From: Methanolobus sp.
GTDB taxonomy: Archaea; Halobacteriota; Methanosarcinia; Methanosarcinales; Methanosarcinaceae
DNA: 64,000 bases
Assembly (NCBI GenBank): GCA_029762595.1
Contig: JARVGJ010000005.1
Span: 29,227-93,226 of the forward strand
Direction: 5' to 3'
A model generated the notes under the pieces. The model ran no database searches, was not told the origin of the DNA, and saw nothing but the letters and a program-made list of their open reading frames with translations. Within the stretch, counting starts at the first letter, position 1; every line of letters starts with the position of its first letter. Shown piece after piece: positions 7,159 to 60,032 of the stretch. The translations under genes were made by a program, and so were the position numbers.

Positions 7159-7502
7159 GTACTTTTCTAAATTTGTTTGTAGATAAGCTGCTTTTGTCTT
7201 TTATGGTGACAATTGGACTTTTACGGAGACCAAAAACCAAATATTGAGTCAATATCAAGGACAAGATCAAATCTCAATCGATTTATATAAAAAAATGAAC
7301 ATGTCAAATATGTACACTTTTAATACTAAAAATTGCATACATTCCATGTAAAAGGTTCTATACAATCATTTTTATATCCTTATATGTGGTTAAATAAACA
7401 ATAGAAATGTTCAACAAATTCTGCTTAGAAGGAAAAAGAGTTTTTCATATCTTCAAGTAACTTGGATCATGATATGTTCATTGATGTACAAAAGGTGTAA
7501 AC

Positions 7503-16892: not shown

Positions 16893-17588
16893 TCATCCTA
16901 GTTTAATCCTCGCGGATTCCACAGCATTCTTACTGACTAGCTCAGCTGCAAATATGTCTGCCATGATCTCAAGCTCATTCTCGGAGCGGTTCCCTGTGAA
17001 GGTTATCATCGAGAGCTGCCTGAGGAGGGGTGTCCTGGTATTGTGGCGCAGGTGCCATGCTTCGTGAGCAAGTATCGCTTTAAGCTCGTTTTTTTCCATG
17101 ATCTCAAGCAGCCCCATGGACAGGAATATAGCCTTCCCCGAAGCGAAGGCCCTCGGGACTGCAGAATCGTAGTAATAGACCTCCCGGGTGCCTGGTGATT
17201 TCTCCATTTTTCCAAGGCTGTCAACAAAAGCCTGCGGCCATTCCATTATCTCTGCTATCGGCCTGGCACCATACCTTCTGATTAGGACAATGTAATAAAT
17301 CCTTGGCAGGAACAGGATAAGCACTGTTGAGATGATCGCATAAGCTGTGTATATCTCAATGCTGAGCATCCGGCTGCAATGCATGGAAGAAACTACCATC
17401 CCTATAGAGATGAGCATGCACAACTGTGCAGCAGTGAATGAGTATATACGGACCTTTGGGCCTTTTGCGCCAAGGTAGGACCCAAACAGCAGTAAGGCAA
17501 GCAAAACAGATGCTGATATGATCGGAAGGAGGCCGGAACCTGAGATGCAGGCCATATAACATCCAATCTCGTCCTGTATGGAAAACAT
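16893..17588 (-). CDS. membrane zinc metallopeptidase, M48/M56 (BlaR1-like) type
   Basis: About 231 residues. Three or four hydrophobic helices fill residues 20-105. A cytoplasmic peptidase domain follows, with HEAWH (residues about 177-181 of the track ORF) as the zinc motif and ENELEIMAD (about 205-213) as the block with the third ligand. This is the M48/M56 pattern of HtpX, BlaR1 and MecR1. There is no penicillin-binding sensor domain. It lies 48 bases downstream of a BlaI-type repressor gene, the classic partner of BlaR1, so its likely task is to cleave or inactivate that repressor on a signal; this is inference. The ATG at 17588 is better spaced from GGAG than the TTG at 17594. Confidence 0.8.
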   Translation of the reverse strand: MFSIQDEIGCYMACISGSGLLPIISASVLLALLLFGSYLGAKGPKVRIYSFTAAQLCMLISIGMVVSSMHCSRMLSIEIYTAYAIISTVLILFLPRIYYIVLIRRYGARPIAEIMEWPQAFVDSLGKMEKSPGTREVYYYDSAVPRAFASGKAIFLSMGLLEIMEKNELKAILAHEAWHLRHNTRTPLLRQLSMITFTGNRSENELEIMADIFAAELVSKNAVESARIKLG

Positions 17589-17642
17589 GATCAATGCTCC
17601 GGGAATAATGCCTCTTTCCTTTTGTGGGCCTTGTTTTGCTCC

Positions 17643-17999
17643 TTATTTCTTATTGTAGGTGTGGAAGTTCTCAATAGCAACCTTGCCGAATGTATCGACA
17701 AGGCTGTCCAGTACTTTCCGGGTAATGGTATTTGCCGTGCTGTCCATGGATTCGCTTGCATAATACAGGTACCTGACCCTATTTTCTTTCTTGTCCACGG
17801 TCCTTTTGGCATAACCTGCCTTTACCAGCCTGTCAAGTGTTCCGGCTACACTGGATAAAGGAATGCCTGTACTTTCGGTGATGTCAGGTGTTGTGCGCTC
17901 TCCTTCCTCCCAAAGGACCGTCATTATCCTGGCCTCGATCGGGCTGAAGAACTTGGTCAGGCCTTCATTTGAAATGTTTATCCGGTCAAGTTTAACCAT
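17643..17999 (-). CDS. BlaI/MecI/CopY-family transcriptional repressor
   Basis: A 118-residue Penicillinase_R family protein. Residues about 20-85 form the winged helix: LTKFFSPIEARIMTVLWEEG, then the recognition helix region TTPDITESTGIPLSSVAGTLDRLVKAGYAKR, and the wing with YLYYA. The C-terminal helix (about 90-118) should dimerise. Family members repress beta-lactamase or copper genes from palindromes of TACA and TGTA. Such a palindrome lies just before its own ATG, and three more lie before the divergent transporter operon. There is no Shine-Dalgarno and a TATA-like run sits about 25 bases upstream, so the mRNA is probably leaderless. Confidence 0.88.
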   Translation of the reverse strand: MVKLDRINISNEGLTKFFSPIEARIMTVLWEEGERTTPDITESTGIPLSSVAGTLDRLVKAGYAKRTVDKKENRVRYLYYASESMDSTANTITRKVLDSLVDTFGKVAIENFHTYNKK

Positions 18000-18003
18000 G
18001 TGT

Positions 18004-18018
18004 TTACAACAGGTGTAA
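18004..18018. promoter_or_regulatory. BlaI-type operator 1 (repressor promoter)
   Basis: TTACA-ACAGG-TGTAA is a perfect inverted repeat with a 5-base spacer, five bases upstream of the repressor ATG and just downstream of its TATA-like element (18021-18030). Binding here would give autoregulation. Confidence 0.65.
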
Positions 18019-18122
18019 GATAATATAAGCCTTATCGTTCCTTAGCTCTTGCGAGTTACCTTCTGGTGTTCAGGTTTTCCAGGCATCCGGCCTGTGTTAT
18101 GGAGTCCTGGCAGTGCTCATGG

Positions 18123-18141
18123 CTTTACACTCGGCGTAAAG
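18123..18141. promoter_or_regulatory. BlaI-type operator 2
   Basis: CTTTAC and GTAAAG form a perfect inverted repeat around a 7-base centre. Read as TACA-CTCGG-CGTA it differs from the other sites by one base. It is the most distant of three sites upstream of the permease operon. Confidence 0.55.
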
Positions 18142-18153
18142 TTAAAGTAGTTA

Positions 18154-18166
18154 TACATTTATTGTA
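18154..18166. promoter_or_regulatory. BlaI-type operator 3
   Basis: TACA-TTTAT-TGTA is a perfect inverted repeat with the same 5-base spacing, centred 28 bases from operator 2 and 24 bases from operator 4. Confidence 0.6.
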
Positions 18167-18177
18167 AAACAGTACTT

Positions 18178-18190
18178 TACACTTGATGTA
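18178..18190. promoter_or_regulatory. BlaI-type operator 4 next to the TATA box of the transporter operon
   Basis: TACA-CTTGA-TGTA is a perfect inverted repeat. Its last bases run into TATAATAA (18189-18196), the likely TATA box of the permease operon. A repressor bound here would hinder TBP/TFB. Confidence 0.6.
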
Positions 18191-18246
18191 TAATAAAAAT
18201 ACAATTGACTCCGGATGCTTCCATATACGGATCAAGAGGTTCATAT

Positions 18247-19422
18247 ATGCATTTACACTCTTTAGTCCTGAAAGACATATCCCGCAGAAAAACAAAACTC
18301 CTGGTAGCTGTACTTGGTGTGGTAGTGGCATCTGCGGCAATAGTGGCTGTGGTCACCACATTTTCCGCAGCAACCGGTAGTCTCTATGAGGAGTCCAATA
18401 ACTTCGGCGCAAATATCATAGTCAGGCCGGAAGTCAGGACCATTCCCCTTGTAACTGGCTCCACATCCATGGGTTCCCTGTTCACAGGAGAAAACTACAT
18501 CGAAGAGTCTGAGATCGCTAACATATACACTATCATGCACAGCTCAAAACTGTCAGTTGTGGCACCGAGGTTATACGGGGTTGCAGAGCTTGGCAACTCA
18601 TCGGTCGTCATAATGGGCGTTGATCCAGAACAGGAAAGGAATCTCAAGTCATGGTGGAATGTCAAGGGCAACTGGATATCCTCAGAAGGCCTAATGCATA
18701 CGGAAGTGATGGTCGGCTCGGACATAGCCACACCCATGGGACTTACGGAAGGGTCCTTCATCACTCTGCGCAATGGTAATACCTCCATTGATGCCCGGGT
18801 GACCGGAGTGATAGAGAGCACAGGCGGCAGTGAGGATGCATATTTAATTCTCCCTCTTGTCGCCTCCCAGCATCTGCTTGGCAGGGAGGGGAAGGTAAGC
18901 AGCCTGGAGGTCAGGGCCCTGTGCAATACCTGTCCGGTAGAAGAGATCAGCATGGAGATCGAGGAGAAATTCCCCGGGCTGGAAGCCAGGTCCATGAGCC
19001 AGATAGTCCGCAATGAGCTGGCTATGGTCGAACACACCCGTTCTTCTGCAATGGCAGTATCGATCATCACCCTCCTGGTGAGTACATTGACGGTGGCTTC
19101 CACCATGCTTGCCTCAGTTAATGAGAAGTTGAAGGAAATTGGCATCATGCGTGCAGTGGGCGCGAGCGATTTCCAGGTAGTATCCATGCTTTTCTTTGAA
19201 GGTGCCATAATAGGCGCAGTGGGCGGCATTATCGGCTTTATAGTGGGGACCATTGCTTCATCAATTGCAGCCCCTCTGCTATTCCAGGCAACACCTTCGC
19301 CAATGTGGGAGATCCTGCTTCCAGTGACCGGCATATGTGTCCTCACCGGCATGCTGGCATCCGTCCTGCCTGCAAAAAAGGCTCTAGGTATCGATCCTGC
19401 GGAGGTGTTGAGAAGTGTCTGA
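18247..19422 (+). CDS. FtsX/MacB-type ABC transporter permease
   Basis: A protein of about 391 residues with the MacB/FtsX layout: one N-terminal helix (residues about 17-40, TKLLVAVLGVVVASAAIVAVV), a large outer domain (about 45-260) and three C-terminal helices. The last part carries MLASVNEKLKEIGIMRAVGAS, the typical FtsX permease motif. It should work as a dimer with the next gene's ATPase, moving or pulling on something outside the membrane rather than classical import. The track starts 14 codons earlier; GAGGT six bases before the ATG at 18247 decides the start. The gene ends inside the start of the ATPase gene. Three BlaI-type operators control it, by inference. Confidence 0.88.
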   Translation: MHLHSLVLKDISRRKTKLLVAVLGVVVASAAIVAVVTTFSAATGSLYEESNNFGANIIVRPEVRTIPLVTGSTSMGSLFTGENYIEESEIANIYTIMHSSKLSVVAPRLYGVAELGNSSVVIMGVDPEQERNLKSWWNVKGNWISSEGLMHTEVMVGSDIATPMGLTEGSFITLRNGNTSIDARVTGVIESTGGSEDAYLILPLVASQHLLGREGKVSSLEVRALCNTCPVEEISMEIEEKFPGLEARSMSQIVRNELAMVEHTRSSAMAVSIITLLVSTLTVASTMLASVNEKLKEIGIMRAVGASDFQVVSMLFFEGAIIGAVGGIIGFIVGTIASSIAAPLLFQATPSPMWEILLPVTGICVLTGMLASVLPAKKALGIDPAEVLRSV

Positions 19423-20083
19423 CGATAAAATGATGATTCGTGTCCAGGGTGCAGCTAAAAGGTATCTGGTGGGCACTGTTGAGGTGGAAGTCCTGCGTGA
19501 CATCAATATGGGCATAAGAGAAGGCGAATTCGTCTCCGTGATGGGCCAGTCAGGCTCAGGGAAGACCACCCTGATGAACCTGATCGGGATGCTTGACAGC
19601 CCCAGCGATGGCAACATCTTCATCGATGGTGTCGATATCACCGGCAAGTCACAGAAAGAGCTGGTGGGGTTGAGGCGCAGGACAGTTGGTTTCGTGTTCC
19701 AGCAGTTCCATCTCATACCCTCCCTCACAGCCTATGAGAACGTCGCCCTTCCTCTGGTATTTGCGGGAGAGAAGGATCAAAGAGCTGTTACCGATGCTCT
19801 GGAAAGGGTAGGGCTGTCCCACCGCCGGGAACACAAGCCTGCGGAGCTGAGCGGGGGAGAACAGCAAAGGGTAGCTATTGCGCGTGCAATTGTAATGAAG
19901 CCAAAGATATTGCTTGCTGATGAGCCCACCGGGGCACTGGATGCAACCACAGGTTCAATGATCATCTCCCTGTTAAGGTCCATGGCAGGGGAGATGACAG
20001 TGGTGATGGTCACTCACAACAGGGAACTTGCACTGCATTCTGACCGGATAGTGAATTTAAAGGATGGTAACATCGCGGAGTAA
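19415..20083 (+). CDS. ABC transporter ATP-binding protein (MacB/LolD type)
   Basis: A 222-residue ATPase. Walker A is GQSGSGKTT, the Q-loop lies in VFQQFHLIPSLTAYENVALPL, the signature is LSGGEQQR, and Walker B is ILLADEPTGALD followed by the switch His in VTHNREL. The Q-loop and DEPTGALD pattern are those of LolD/MacB ATPases that partner FtsX-like permeases. The start is GTG at 19415, eight bases inside the permease end, behind GGAGGTG. Confidence 0.93.
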   Translation: MSDDKMMIRVQGAAKRYLVGTVEVEVLRDINMGIREGEFVSVMGQSGSGKTTLMNLIGMLDSPSDGNIFIDGVDITGKSQKELVGLRRRTVGFVFQQFHLIPSLTAYENVALPLVFAGEKDQRAVTDALERVGLSHRREHKPAELSGGEQQRVAIARAIVMKPKILLADEPTGALDATTGSMIISLLRSMAGEMTVVMVTHNRELALHSDRIVNLKDGNIAE

Positions 20084-20088
20084 ATAAA

Positions 20089-20583
20089 ATGACTTTTAAG
20101 ATAATAGCTGTTGTTTTATCAGTGCTCGTAATATCTGTACTTGCACTTGGATGTACGGGAAATGATCCTGCTGCATTGAAAGACTCTGCAAAGCCTGTAG
20201 AGGCCACATGGATAAACCCCCTGTCAACAGATCAAACAGTCTCCATACCAGTTGAAGCAGTGAACATGCATACCAATGTACACTTTAAAGTGAACACAGA
20301 CATCGGAGAGCTTGTTTTAATGGCATACATGTTTGATGATGATATATTCATCAGGTCCAATGTTTGCCCTCCCTGCGGCTCCATCGGATTTGCTCTCGAT
20401 GATAGCATACTCATTTGTGATGCATGTGCCAGTACATTTGATGCTTCCACAGGTAAGGGTATTGGAGGAGCCTGTGTTGCATACCCTAAGGAAAGCGTTC
20501 CATATACTGTTTCAGGGGGTACTATTATCATGAATCTTGAAGACGTAATGAGTGCACACCAGGAATCCCTAAGGAGAAAGTAA
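20089..20583 (+). CDS. FtrD-like (DUF2318) metal-binding lipoprotein
   Basis: A 164-residue lipoprotein with signal box LALGC (Cys22). The mature domain carries two Cys pairs and a further Cys in the DUF2318/FtrD arrangement: CPPCGSIGF (Cys93, Cys96), CDACASTFD (Cys110, Cys113) and GGACVAYP (Cys129). FtrD belongs to bacterial ferrous iron uptake systems, and related clusters pair this domain with FtsX-type permeases and an ATPase, as in the Campylobacter P19 region as I recall it. Here it sits six bases after the ATPase and closes the three-gene operon. A role in iron or copper handling outside the membrane is likely but not shown. Confidence 0.82.
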   Translation: MTFKIIAVVLSVLVISVLALGCTGNDPAALKDSAKPVEATWINPLSTDQTVSIPVEAVNMHTNVHFKVNTDIGELVLMAYMFDDDIFIRSNVCPPCGSIGFALDDSILICDACASTFDASTGKGIGGACVAYPKESVPYTVSGGTIIMNLEDVMSAHQESLRRK

Positions 20584-58537: not shown

Positions 58538-58729
58538 GGGGCTGTGGCCTAGCCCGGCATGGCGATGGGCTCCAGCGGATAAATGATGAACAACGGGTCT
58601 ACCGAGACTAACCCGACGGGGTTTGTCTGTGAGGAGCCGTTGGAGCACTGATATGTGCTCAACTGAATGCTGTTTATACAGCTGTTCGGAGAGACCCGTC
58701 GATCGTGAGTTCGAATCTCACCAGCCCCA
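58538..58729 (+). tRNA. trnW: tRNA-Trp (CCA) with a 118-nt intron
   Basis: The exons are 58538-58575 and 58694-58729, 74 bases in all with no encoded CCA end. The acceptor stem GGGGCTG pairs with CAGCCCC and the T arm is GTGAG-TTCGAAT-CTCAC. The anticodon stem ATGGG/CCCGT encloses CTCCAGA, with anticodon CCA at 58572-58574. The intron is inserted after G37. Around the cut sites CTCC of the exon pairs with GGAG of the intron, and 3-base bulges (AG^C and AG^A) flank this 4-bp helix, so the archaeal splicing endonuclease has its bulge-helix-bulge target. The intron is a box C/D RNA. Confidence 0.96.
58576..58693 (+). ncRNA. box C/D guide RNA within the tRNA-Trp intron
   Basis: Box C is ATGATGA (58583-58589), box D' is CCGA (58602-58605), box C' is GTGAGGA (58629-58635) and box D is CTGA (58648-58651). 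Both guide spaces are exactly 12 bases. By the rule of the fifth base before the box, the D guide (TTGGAGCA) places C34 of the tRNA for 2'-O-methylation. The D' guide (ACGGGTCTA) places C39. Each guide also pairs with intron bases next to the splice sites, so the unspliced tRNA is the target. This is known for Haloferax pre-tRNA-Trp. Confidence 0.88.
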
Positions 58730-59713: not shown

Positions 59714-60032
59714 GCTGTATTTTTAAAACAAGGTCAATGAAAAGCAATGTCATTAAGTTATTAAATTAACTATGATCGTGTTTGGGTTATAATTAATTTG
59801 CAATCTCATTATAATATACTGTAATATACTGTGTATAAAGCTGTGCATAAAGGATGCTTTTGAACCCGATCTGCTTTTATCTCATACCATTTTTTTCTTC
59901 ATGGGCTGTGCAAAGGTTTAAATTAGATCACGTTAAGTAGTAGTCCTGTTTCATTGTCGGGATGAGTCCCGTGGGAATGTGGCTTTACAAAAGCTGAACC
60001 GTGAAACTAGAAATGAAACTTAGGTGAAAGAA
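59714..60032 (+). other. spacer and leader of rpl15e
   Basis: The first part holds a 10-base perfect tandem duplication (TAATATACTG, 59812-59831) and AT-rich sequence. The last 75 bases form two hairpins before rpl15e: CGGGA-TGAG-TCCCG (59958-59971) and GGCTTT-ACA-AAAGCT (59981-59995). They lie where an autoregulated ribosomal protein leader would fold, but no known motif was recognised. No ORF is supported. Confidence 0.45.

Follow-up and report, generated by a model that had tools for sequence, protein, structure and literature searches.

In bacterial antibiotic resistance, repression by BlaI-type proteins is known to be relieved by proteolysis; an archaeal pair of a BlaI-like protein and a protease was not found in the papers searched. 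A stretch of 64,000 nucleotides from the archaeon Methanolobus sp. (contig JARVGJ010000005.1 of assembly GCA_029762595.1, positions 29,227 to 93,226; this whole stretch is termed “the window”) raises the question whether archaea employ a switch of the same kind. In the window a gene for a BlaI/MecI-like repressor lies in tandem with a gene for a membrane peptidase, and an operon coding for an ATP-binding cassette (ABC) system runs away from the two. Our comparative analysis favours a positive answer: the archaeal system reads as a switch of the BlaR1-BlaI kind in which the peptidase family, the candidate sensor and the predicted regulon are all new, the cleavage step and the signal being the parts that we infer. 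With a probability of roughly 0.7, the pair represents a membrane-signalled, BlaR1-BlaI-like derepression switch that controls a metal/redox transporter operon. Since the operators, the regulon and the candidate sensor site are all readable from the sequence, the question is directly testable.

The genome containing the window comprises 2.43 Mb, and the locus is composed of five genes:

16893..17588, minus strand: M48-family membrane peptidase, 231 amino acids (Pfam PF01435, 36-sequence alignment, positive-inside topology)
17643..17999, minus strand: BlaI/MecI-like winged-helix repressor (blaI), 118 amino acids (Pfam PF03965, alignment)
18247..19422, plus strand: FtsX/MacB-type permease, 391 amino acids (Pfam FtsX and MacB_PCD)
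19415..20083, plus strand: LolD/MacB-type ABC ATPase with a GTG start, overlapping the permease gene (Pfam ABC_tran)
20089..20583, plus strand: FtrD-like (PF10080/DUF2318) lipoprotein (Pfam PF10080)

All five score above the Pfam cut-off, and their positions and strands agree with the layout given in a preliminary description of this DNA. The permease gene shares 8 bp with the ATPase gene, and 5 bp separate the ATPase stop from the start of the lipoprotein gene, yielding a tight operon. The peptidase probably starts at the ATG at 17588 (its homologues begin with MFSI), and the permease probably at the ATG at 18247.

The five-gene neighbourhood, for which the preliminary description had proposed a search of archaeal genomes, proved to be kept in the Methanosarcinaceae and to recur beyond this family. 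Among 112 Methanosarcinaceae genomes, 20 intact BlaI orthologues were found (67-91% identity). At 20/20 of these loci blaI has the M48 gene in tandem and a divergent permease gene, and the ATPase and FtrD genes come next wherever the contig and the permease gene are complete. The outer neighbours (thiM/thiE, a quinone-reductase-like gene and serS) are common only to the closest Methanolobus; as the flanking genes vary between genera, it is the block itself that selection keeps. The complete block was found in the same arrangement in two genomes of family f8, which belongs to another class of the phylum and in which the identity is about 31% for the permease and about 45% for BlaI. Taken by itself, the adjacency of the BlaI and M48 genes extends to 20/20 Methanosarcinaceae, 3 ANME-2 (anaerobic methanotrophic archaea), 16 Methanoperedenaceae and 2 f8 loci, and at the Methanoperedenaceae and ANME-2 loci the pair stands without a permease gene beside it. 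The block is a real unit, and its arrangement is not due to chance. Copies in decay also occur: in one Methanosarcina blaI is a pseudogene interrupted by stops (L053, G075), in another genome a truncated blaI lies beside an M48 gene (L052, G106), and in a third the M48 gene is broken (G103). The permease gene is gone at both decayed loci inspected (L052, L053).

How, then, might the repressor reach the two promoters? The spacer between blaI and the permease gene measures 247 bp in the window and harbours three exact TACAN5TGTA sites and one with a single change, arranged around the promoters as follows:

18003..18019, no strand: predicted operator dyad O1 (TTTACAACAGGTGTAAG), between the TATA box and the blaI start codon
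18021..18028, minus strand: blaI TATA box (TTATATTA), beginning 29 bp before the ATG in 20/20 spacers
18124..18140, no strand: predicted operator dyad A (TTTACACTCGGCGTAAA), at the upstream edge of the permease promoter
18152..18168, no strand: predicted operator dyad B (TATACATTTATTGTAAA), 28 bp after A, covering the point where transcription of the permease operon presumably starts
18176..18192, no strand: predicted operator dyad C (TTTACACTTGATGTATA), 24 bp after B (25 bp in most relatives)

Across the 20 Methanosarcinaceae spacers, 17-bp dyads of the form TTTACRN5YGTAAA are found three or four per spacer, one at blaI and the others over the permease promoter; with at most one mismatch they number 75, compared to 0.17 in dinucleotide shuffles. 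The length of the spacer varies from 114 to 374 bp, and the permease-side dyads hold their 28-bp/25-bp spacing. Dyad O1 is conserved in ANME-2, at most of the scanned Methanoperedenaceae loci and in 20/20 Methanosarcinaceae spacers. In these spacers it always fills the gap between the TATA box and the ATG of blaI, where a bound protein would block the start of transcription. TACA/TGTA half-sites are characteristic of operators of the BlaI/CopY family (PMC7253601), and the half-sites of the archaeal dyads as well as their positions at the repressor’s own and the target promoter match BlaI/MecI operators, with a spacing of N5 instead of N2. Very likely, it is BlaI that binds these dyads.

In the window’s own genome about 22 sites lie within one mismatch of TTTACAN5TGTAAA, four of them in this spacer, and a genome-wide dyad search for a wider regulon returned only background with the exception of this spacer. 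Sites of the form TACAN5TGTA are also present at 7338-7350 and 7485-7501 of the window, upstream of a tetratricopeptide-repeat gene (start 7503); the second directly precedes the start codon, and both are possibly due to chance.

Natural controls reveal that the predicted operator motif tracks the presence of BlaI. Eight genomes of genus g7 possess the permease-ATPase-FtrD operon and encode no BlaI anywhere; the 350-bp regions upstream of their operons contain zero dyads, even with a mismatch allowed in the TACA/TGTA core. In ANME-2 the operon and blaI are located on different contigs and the operon promoter still carries dyads, which are read as the footprint of control in trans. Within f8, the dyads are intact in the two genomes with BlaI and occur as degraded homologous sites in a third genome without BlaI (61% complete). 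In total, dyads were found at the operon in 25/25 cases with BlaI and in 0/9 without (Fisher p = 2e-8, with relatedness ignored, so that the comparison effectively reflects few independent gains and losses). The preliminary description had envisaged a circuit in which the peptidase inactivates the repressor and thereby releases the transporter operon. Its repressor-operator half has gained strong support from operator-like dyads that track BlaI at both promoters; the proteolysis half is what we infer.

Which protein would perceive a signal? The window peptidase matches family M48 (PF01435, 39 bits versus a cut-off of 20.3), as do 36/36 relatives; M56, the family of BlaR1, is weakly matched by 11/36, the window protein not being among them. 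An assignment to M56 was thus rejected, and the preliminary description, which had compared the peptidase to BlaR1/MecR1, needs correction with regard to the family. Its statement that the protein has no penicillin-sensor domain is borne out, as the chain ends 20 residues after the EXXXD motif. The peptidase comprises about three transmembrane segments, and the motifs H175EAWH179 and E207xxxD211 are invariant in 36 sequences; BlaR1 also features HEXXH and EXXXD (PMC9834060). The distribution of charges (positive-inside) places the N-terminus and the loop between the second and third transmembrane segments outside and the catalytic part inside. Within the first 105 residues, the invariant positions of the 36 peptidases (42-74% identity) are M1, C10, C14, Q55, M69, C71, M74 and Y83; accordingly, three cysteines and two methionines (CxxxC, MxCxxM) gather on the outer side. 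The f8 peptidases keep CxxxC, and their second motif is MxCPM. The invariant outward Cys/Met residues suggest a sensor of thiols or soft metals.

The repressor, in turn, fits PF03965 (Penicillinase_R) best (34.2 bits versus 22.6), with MarR and TrmB models close behind, and 31/31 of its relatives match PF03965. No conserved Cys and no C-terminal CxC metal motif is present in the 31 aligned repressors, and hence, a CopY-like metal response of the repressor itself is unlikely. Because the outward Cys/Met residues of the peptidase are invariant and the repressor is devoid of a conserved Cys, we propose the peptidase as the sensor. Near the C-terminus of the repressor, N111-F112 is invariant in 31 sequences and resembles the BlaI cleavage site Asn101-Phe102 (PMC9834060). 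A second PF03965 match in the window genome lies within an open frame of 335 amino acids.

The make-up of the predicted target operon bears on the nature of the signal. The FtrD-like lipoprotein (PF10080, 36.8 bits versus 26.3) carries the Cys motifs CPPC and CDxC as well as a fifth Cys, C129, and its structural model resembles Rieske-type ferredoxins (predicted local distance difference test, pLDDT, 78; Foldseek E ~1e-4). The permease harbours an invariant extracytoplasmic CxxC (C226, C229), which is missing from its E. coli plasmid relatives, the two permeases FetB and FetC of the fet iron cluster. Like FetMP-fetABCDEF and FtrABCD, the archaeal cluster combines a DUF2318 protein with an FtsX/MacB permease and an ATPase. 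Unlike these systems it is devoid of FTR1, P19 and thioredoxins, employs a single permease with CxxC, and its DUF2318 protein is a lipoprotein rather than a fusion with eight transmembrane segments. Neither FTR1 nor P19 has a match anywhere in the window’s whole genome. The closest bacterial trio found, on the Pelobacter plasmid pPRO1, consists of the same three genes with a single permease and the same ALCxxCP motif, and adjoins genes for a CopA-like ATPase, an HMA protein and a RicR/CsoR-like regulator. It differs from the archaeal block in its regulator, in the leading position of the DUF2318 gene and in the linked P-type ATPase, HMA, TolC and RND genes. The absence of FTR1 and P19, the CxxC motif and, as thin evidence from one locus, the copper context in Pelobacter make a soft-metal or thiol function more likely than iron uptake. 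Thus, the link to iron uptake that the preliminary description had drawn from the FtrD-type protein is weakened, given also that the CxxC is unlike FetB/FetC and that the Pelobacter trio is part of a copper-export cluster.

These features can be combined into a mechanism. A BlaI-like dimer would occupy the dyads at its own start site and at the permease promoter and keep both operons low. On the outside, the CxxxC and MxC(x)xM cluster of the peptidase would bind a soft metal (Cu(I)-like), or its thiols would change their redox state; upon this signal the M48 zinc site on the inside would inactivate the repressor, and the permease-ATPase-FtrD operon as well as the BlaI-M48 pair itself would be made. 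The operon may then act as an envelope ABC system handling thiols or metal, and extracytoplasmic thiol-metal-haem homeostasis may represent the ancestral theme. In view of the constant pairing and the precedent of BlaR1, M48 likely inactivates BlaI. As to the signal, a soft metal or thiol redox is the somewhat favoured candidate, iron or haem is unlikely, and any other signal is less likely still.

The proposed switch shares with BlaR1-BlaI and MecR1-MecI of Staphylococcus and Bacillus a repressor gene in tandem with a membrane gluzincin (HEXXH and EXXXD), a divergent target operon, TACA/TGTA half-sites and a repressor predicted to sit also over its own promoter. In contrast to BlaR1/MecR1, the archaeal peptidase belongs to M48, consists of 231 amino acids without a beta-lactam sensor or a large extracellular domain and exposes Cys/Met residues outside; in contrast to BlaI/MecI, the operator spacing is N5, the repressor is without a C-terminal extension and the promoters are archaeal. 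With CopY/CopR the system has in common the PF03965-type winged helix, TACA/TGTA sites and a possible soft-metal theme; it differs by the missing CxC metal site of the repressor, the presence of a partner protease and N5 instead of N2. Several observations weigh against this reading. The half-site spacing deviates from the N2 of CopY/BlaI sites, and the repressor profile finds MarR-like proteins in the PDB instead of BlaI/MecI. The N-F dipeptide is absent from both f8 repressors, which renders the cut site uncertain and N-F a lead only. Moreover, an AlphaFold prediction of the peptidase from 36 sequences was poor (pLDDT 68) and yielded no Foldseek match, and the model was not used. Finally, the copper context of the transporter stems from one bacterial locus.

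Does the switch control other genes in relatives? Each of ten Methanoperedenaceae genomes contains 7-21 copies of the exact dyad, compared to 0-3 of the reversed pattern. In five Methanoperedenaceae genomes, 41/56 non-blaI sites precede one of a few recurring operons, a fraction that is descriptive, since the target families were named after the site positions had been seen; the evidence lies in how far the dyad outnumbers the reversed pattern and in its recurrence from genome to genome. By Pfam family, the targets include CcmE-CcmF-CcmH and other cytochrome c assembly proteins, DsbD/CcdA, thioredoxins and PCYCGC proteins, and further a MacB-type ABC operon (with an FTR1 permease beside it in some genomes) and an Lrp-TRASH regulator. 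One metagenome-assembled genome of the Methanosarcinaceae carries dyads at a ccmE-thioredoxin-PCYCGC-DsbD operon. In one ANME-2 genome dyads are located between a second BlaI-like gene and a divergent thioredoxin-PCYCGC-DsbD operon; another genome of ANME-2 has them upstream of a homologous gene, named thioredoxin-like by sequence resemblance. No M48 gene was seen beside the second BlaI-like gene in ANME-2 (L179:3500-3931, L180). The ccmE genes tested in Methanolobus and Methanosarcina are without dyads, and therefore, no cytochrome regulon is claimed for the window genome. Following dyads in several Methanoperedenaceae (L187, L195, L174) is a Fer4_5 membrane protein of about 550 amino acids with a Met/His-rich N-terminus, the Met-rich part of which resembles a copper-binding stretch.

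Methane-oxidising archaea rely on a large number of c-type cytochromes. We predict that cytochrome c maturation in Methanoperedens is governed by this switch, and the archaeal Ccm pathway (PMC9084895) is a predicted target there and in the one Methanosarcinaceae metagenome-assembled genome. If true, the Methanoperedens regulon would provide a first handle on the control of haem attachment and envelope thiol chemistry in methane-oxidising archaea. Tentatively, the switch may be seen as a portable device by which the envelope senses soft metals or the redox state of thiols, a minimal archaeal BlaR1-BlaI analogue based on M48 and its outward Cys/Met residues. In methylotrophic methanogens it would control an ABC system rich in Cys, and in the methane oxidiser Methanoperedens a regulon for cytochrome c maturation. 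The odds of this wider proposal are somewhat below even.

Alternatively, the same switch might respond to the supply of iron or haem, or to a failure of cytochrome c assembly, with the operon as a relative of the fetABCD iron system. The combination of DUF2318, FtsX permease and ATPase is indeed found in the fet cluster of E. coli plasmids (PMC10783030), and among the Methanoperedens targets an FTR1 iron permease lies in one region and haem-handling Ccm proteins in others. Considering the lack of FTR1 and P19 in the window genome, the one permease in place of two, with a CxxC absent from FetB/FetC, the invariant Cys/Met residues of the sensor region, which favour a soft metal or thiol, and the dyad-free ccmE genes of Methanolobus, we regard this explanation as doubtful.

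The proposed switch also has to be weighed against the possibility that the repressor acts on the dyads via a ligand of its own and M48 is a co-regulated, HtpX-like envelope quality-control protease. HtpX is the sole solved relative of the peptidase by sequence, a second, HtpX-like M48 gene (about 290-330 amino acids) directly follows the BlaI-M48 pair in most of the Methanoperedenaceae loci scanned (L147-L161), and the N-F motif is not universal. Yet every lineage checked has BlaI and M48 side by side, even with different target genes, the repressor is without a conserved Cys or CxC metal site, and apart from the catalytic residues conservation in the peptidase is highest at its outward-facing Cys/Met; on balance, mere co-regulation is rather improbable. 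That the dyads belong to another regulator, with BlaI as a bystander, is very improbable: Lrp-TRASH regulators themselves adjoin dyads in Methanoperedens, but almost every BlaI locus that was scanned has a dyad at the start of blaI, dyads are absent or degraded at the permease promoters of BlaI-less genomes, and the TACA/TGTA half-sites match the BlaI/CopY family (PMC7253601).

Elsewhere, the window contains a tRNA with an intron that includes the box C/D RNA sR3 (58538-58729; found by Rfam and missed by ARAGORN) and an eL15-Euryarchaeota ribosomal protein leader (Rfam RF03144) at 59958-60005.

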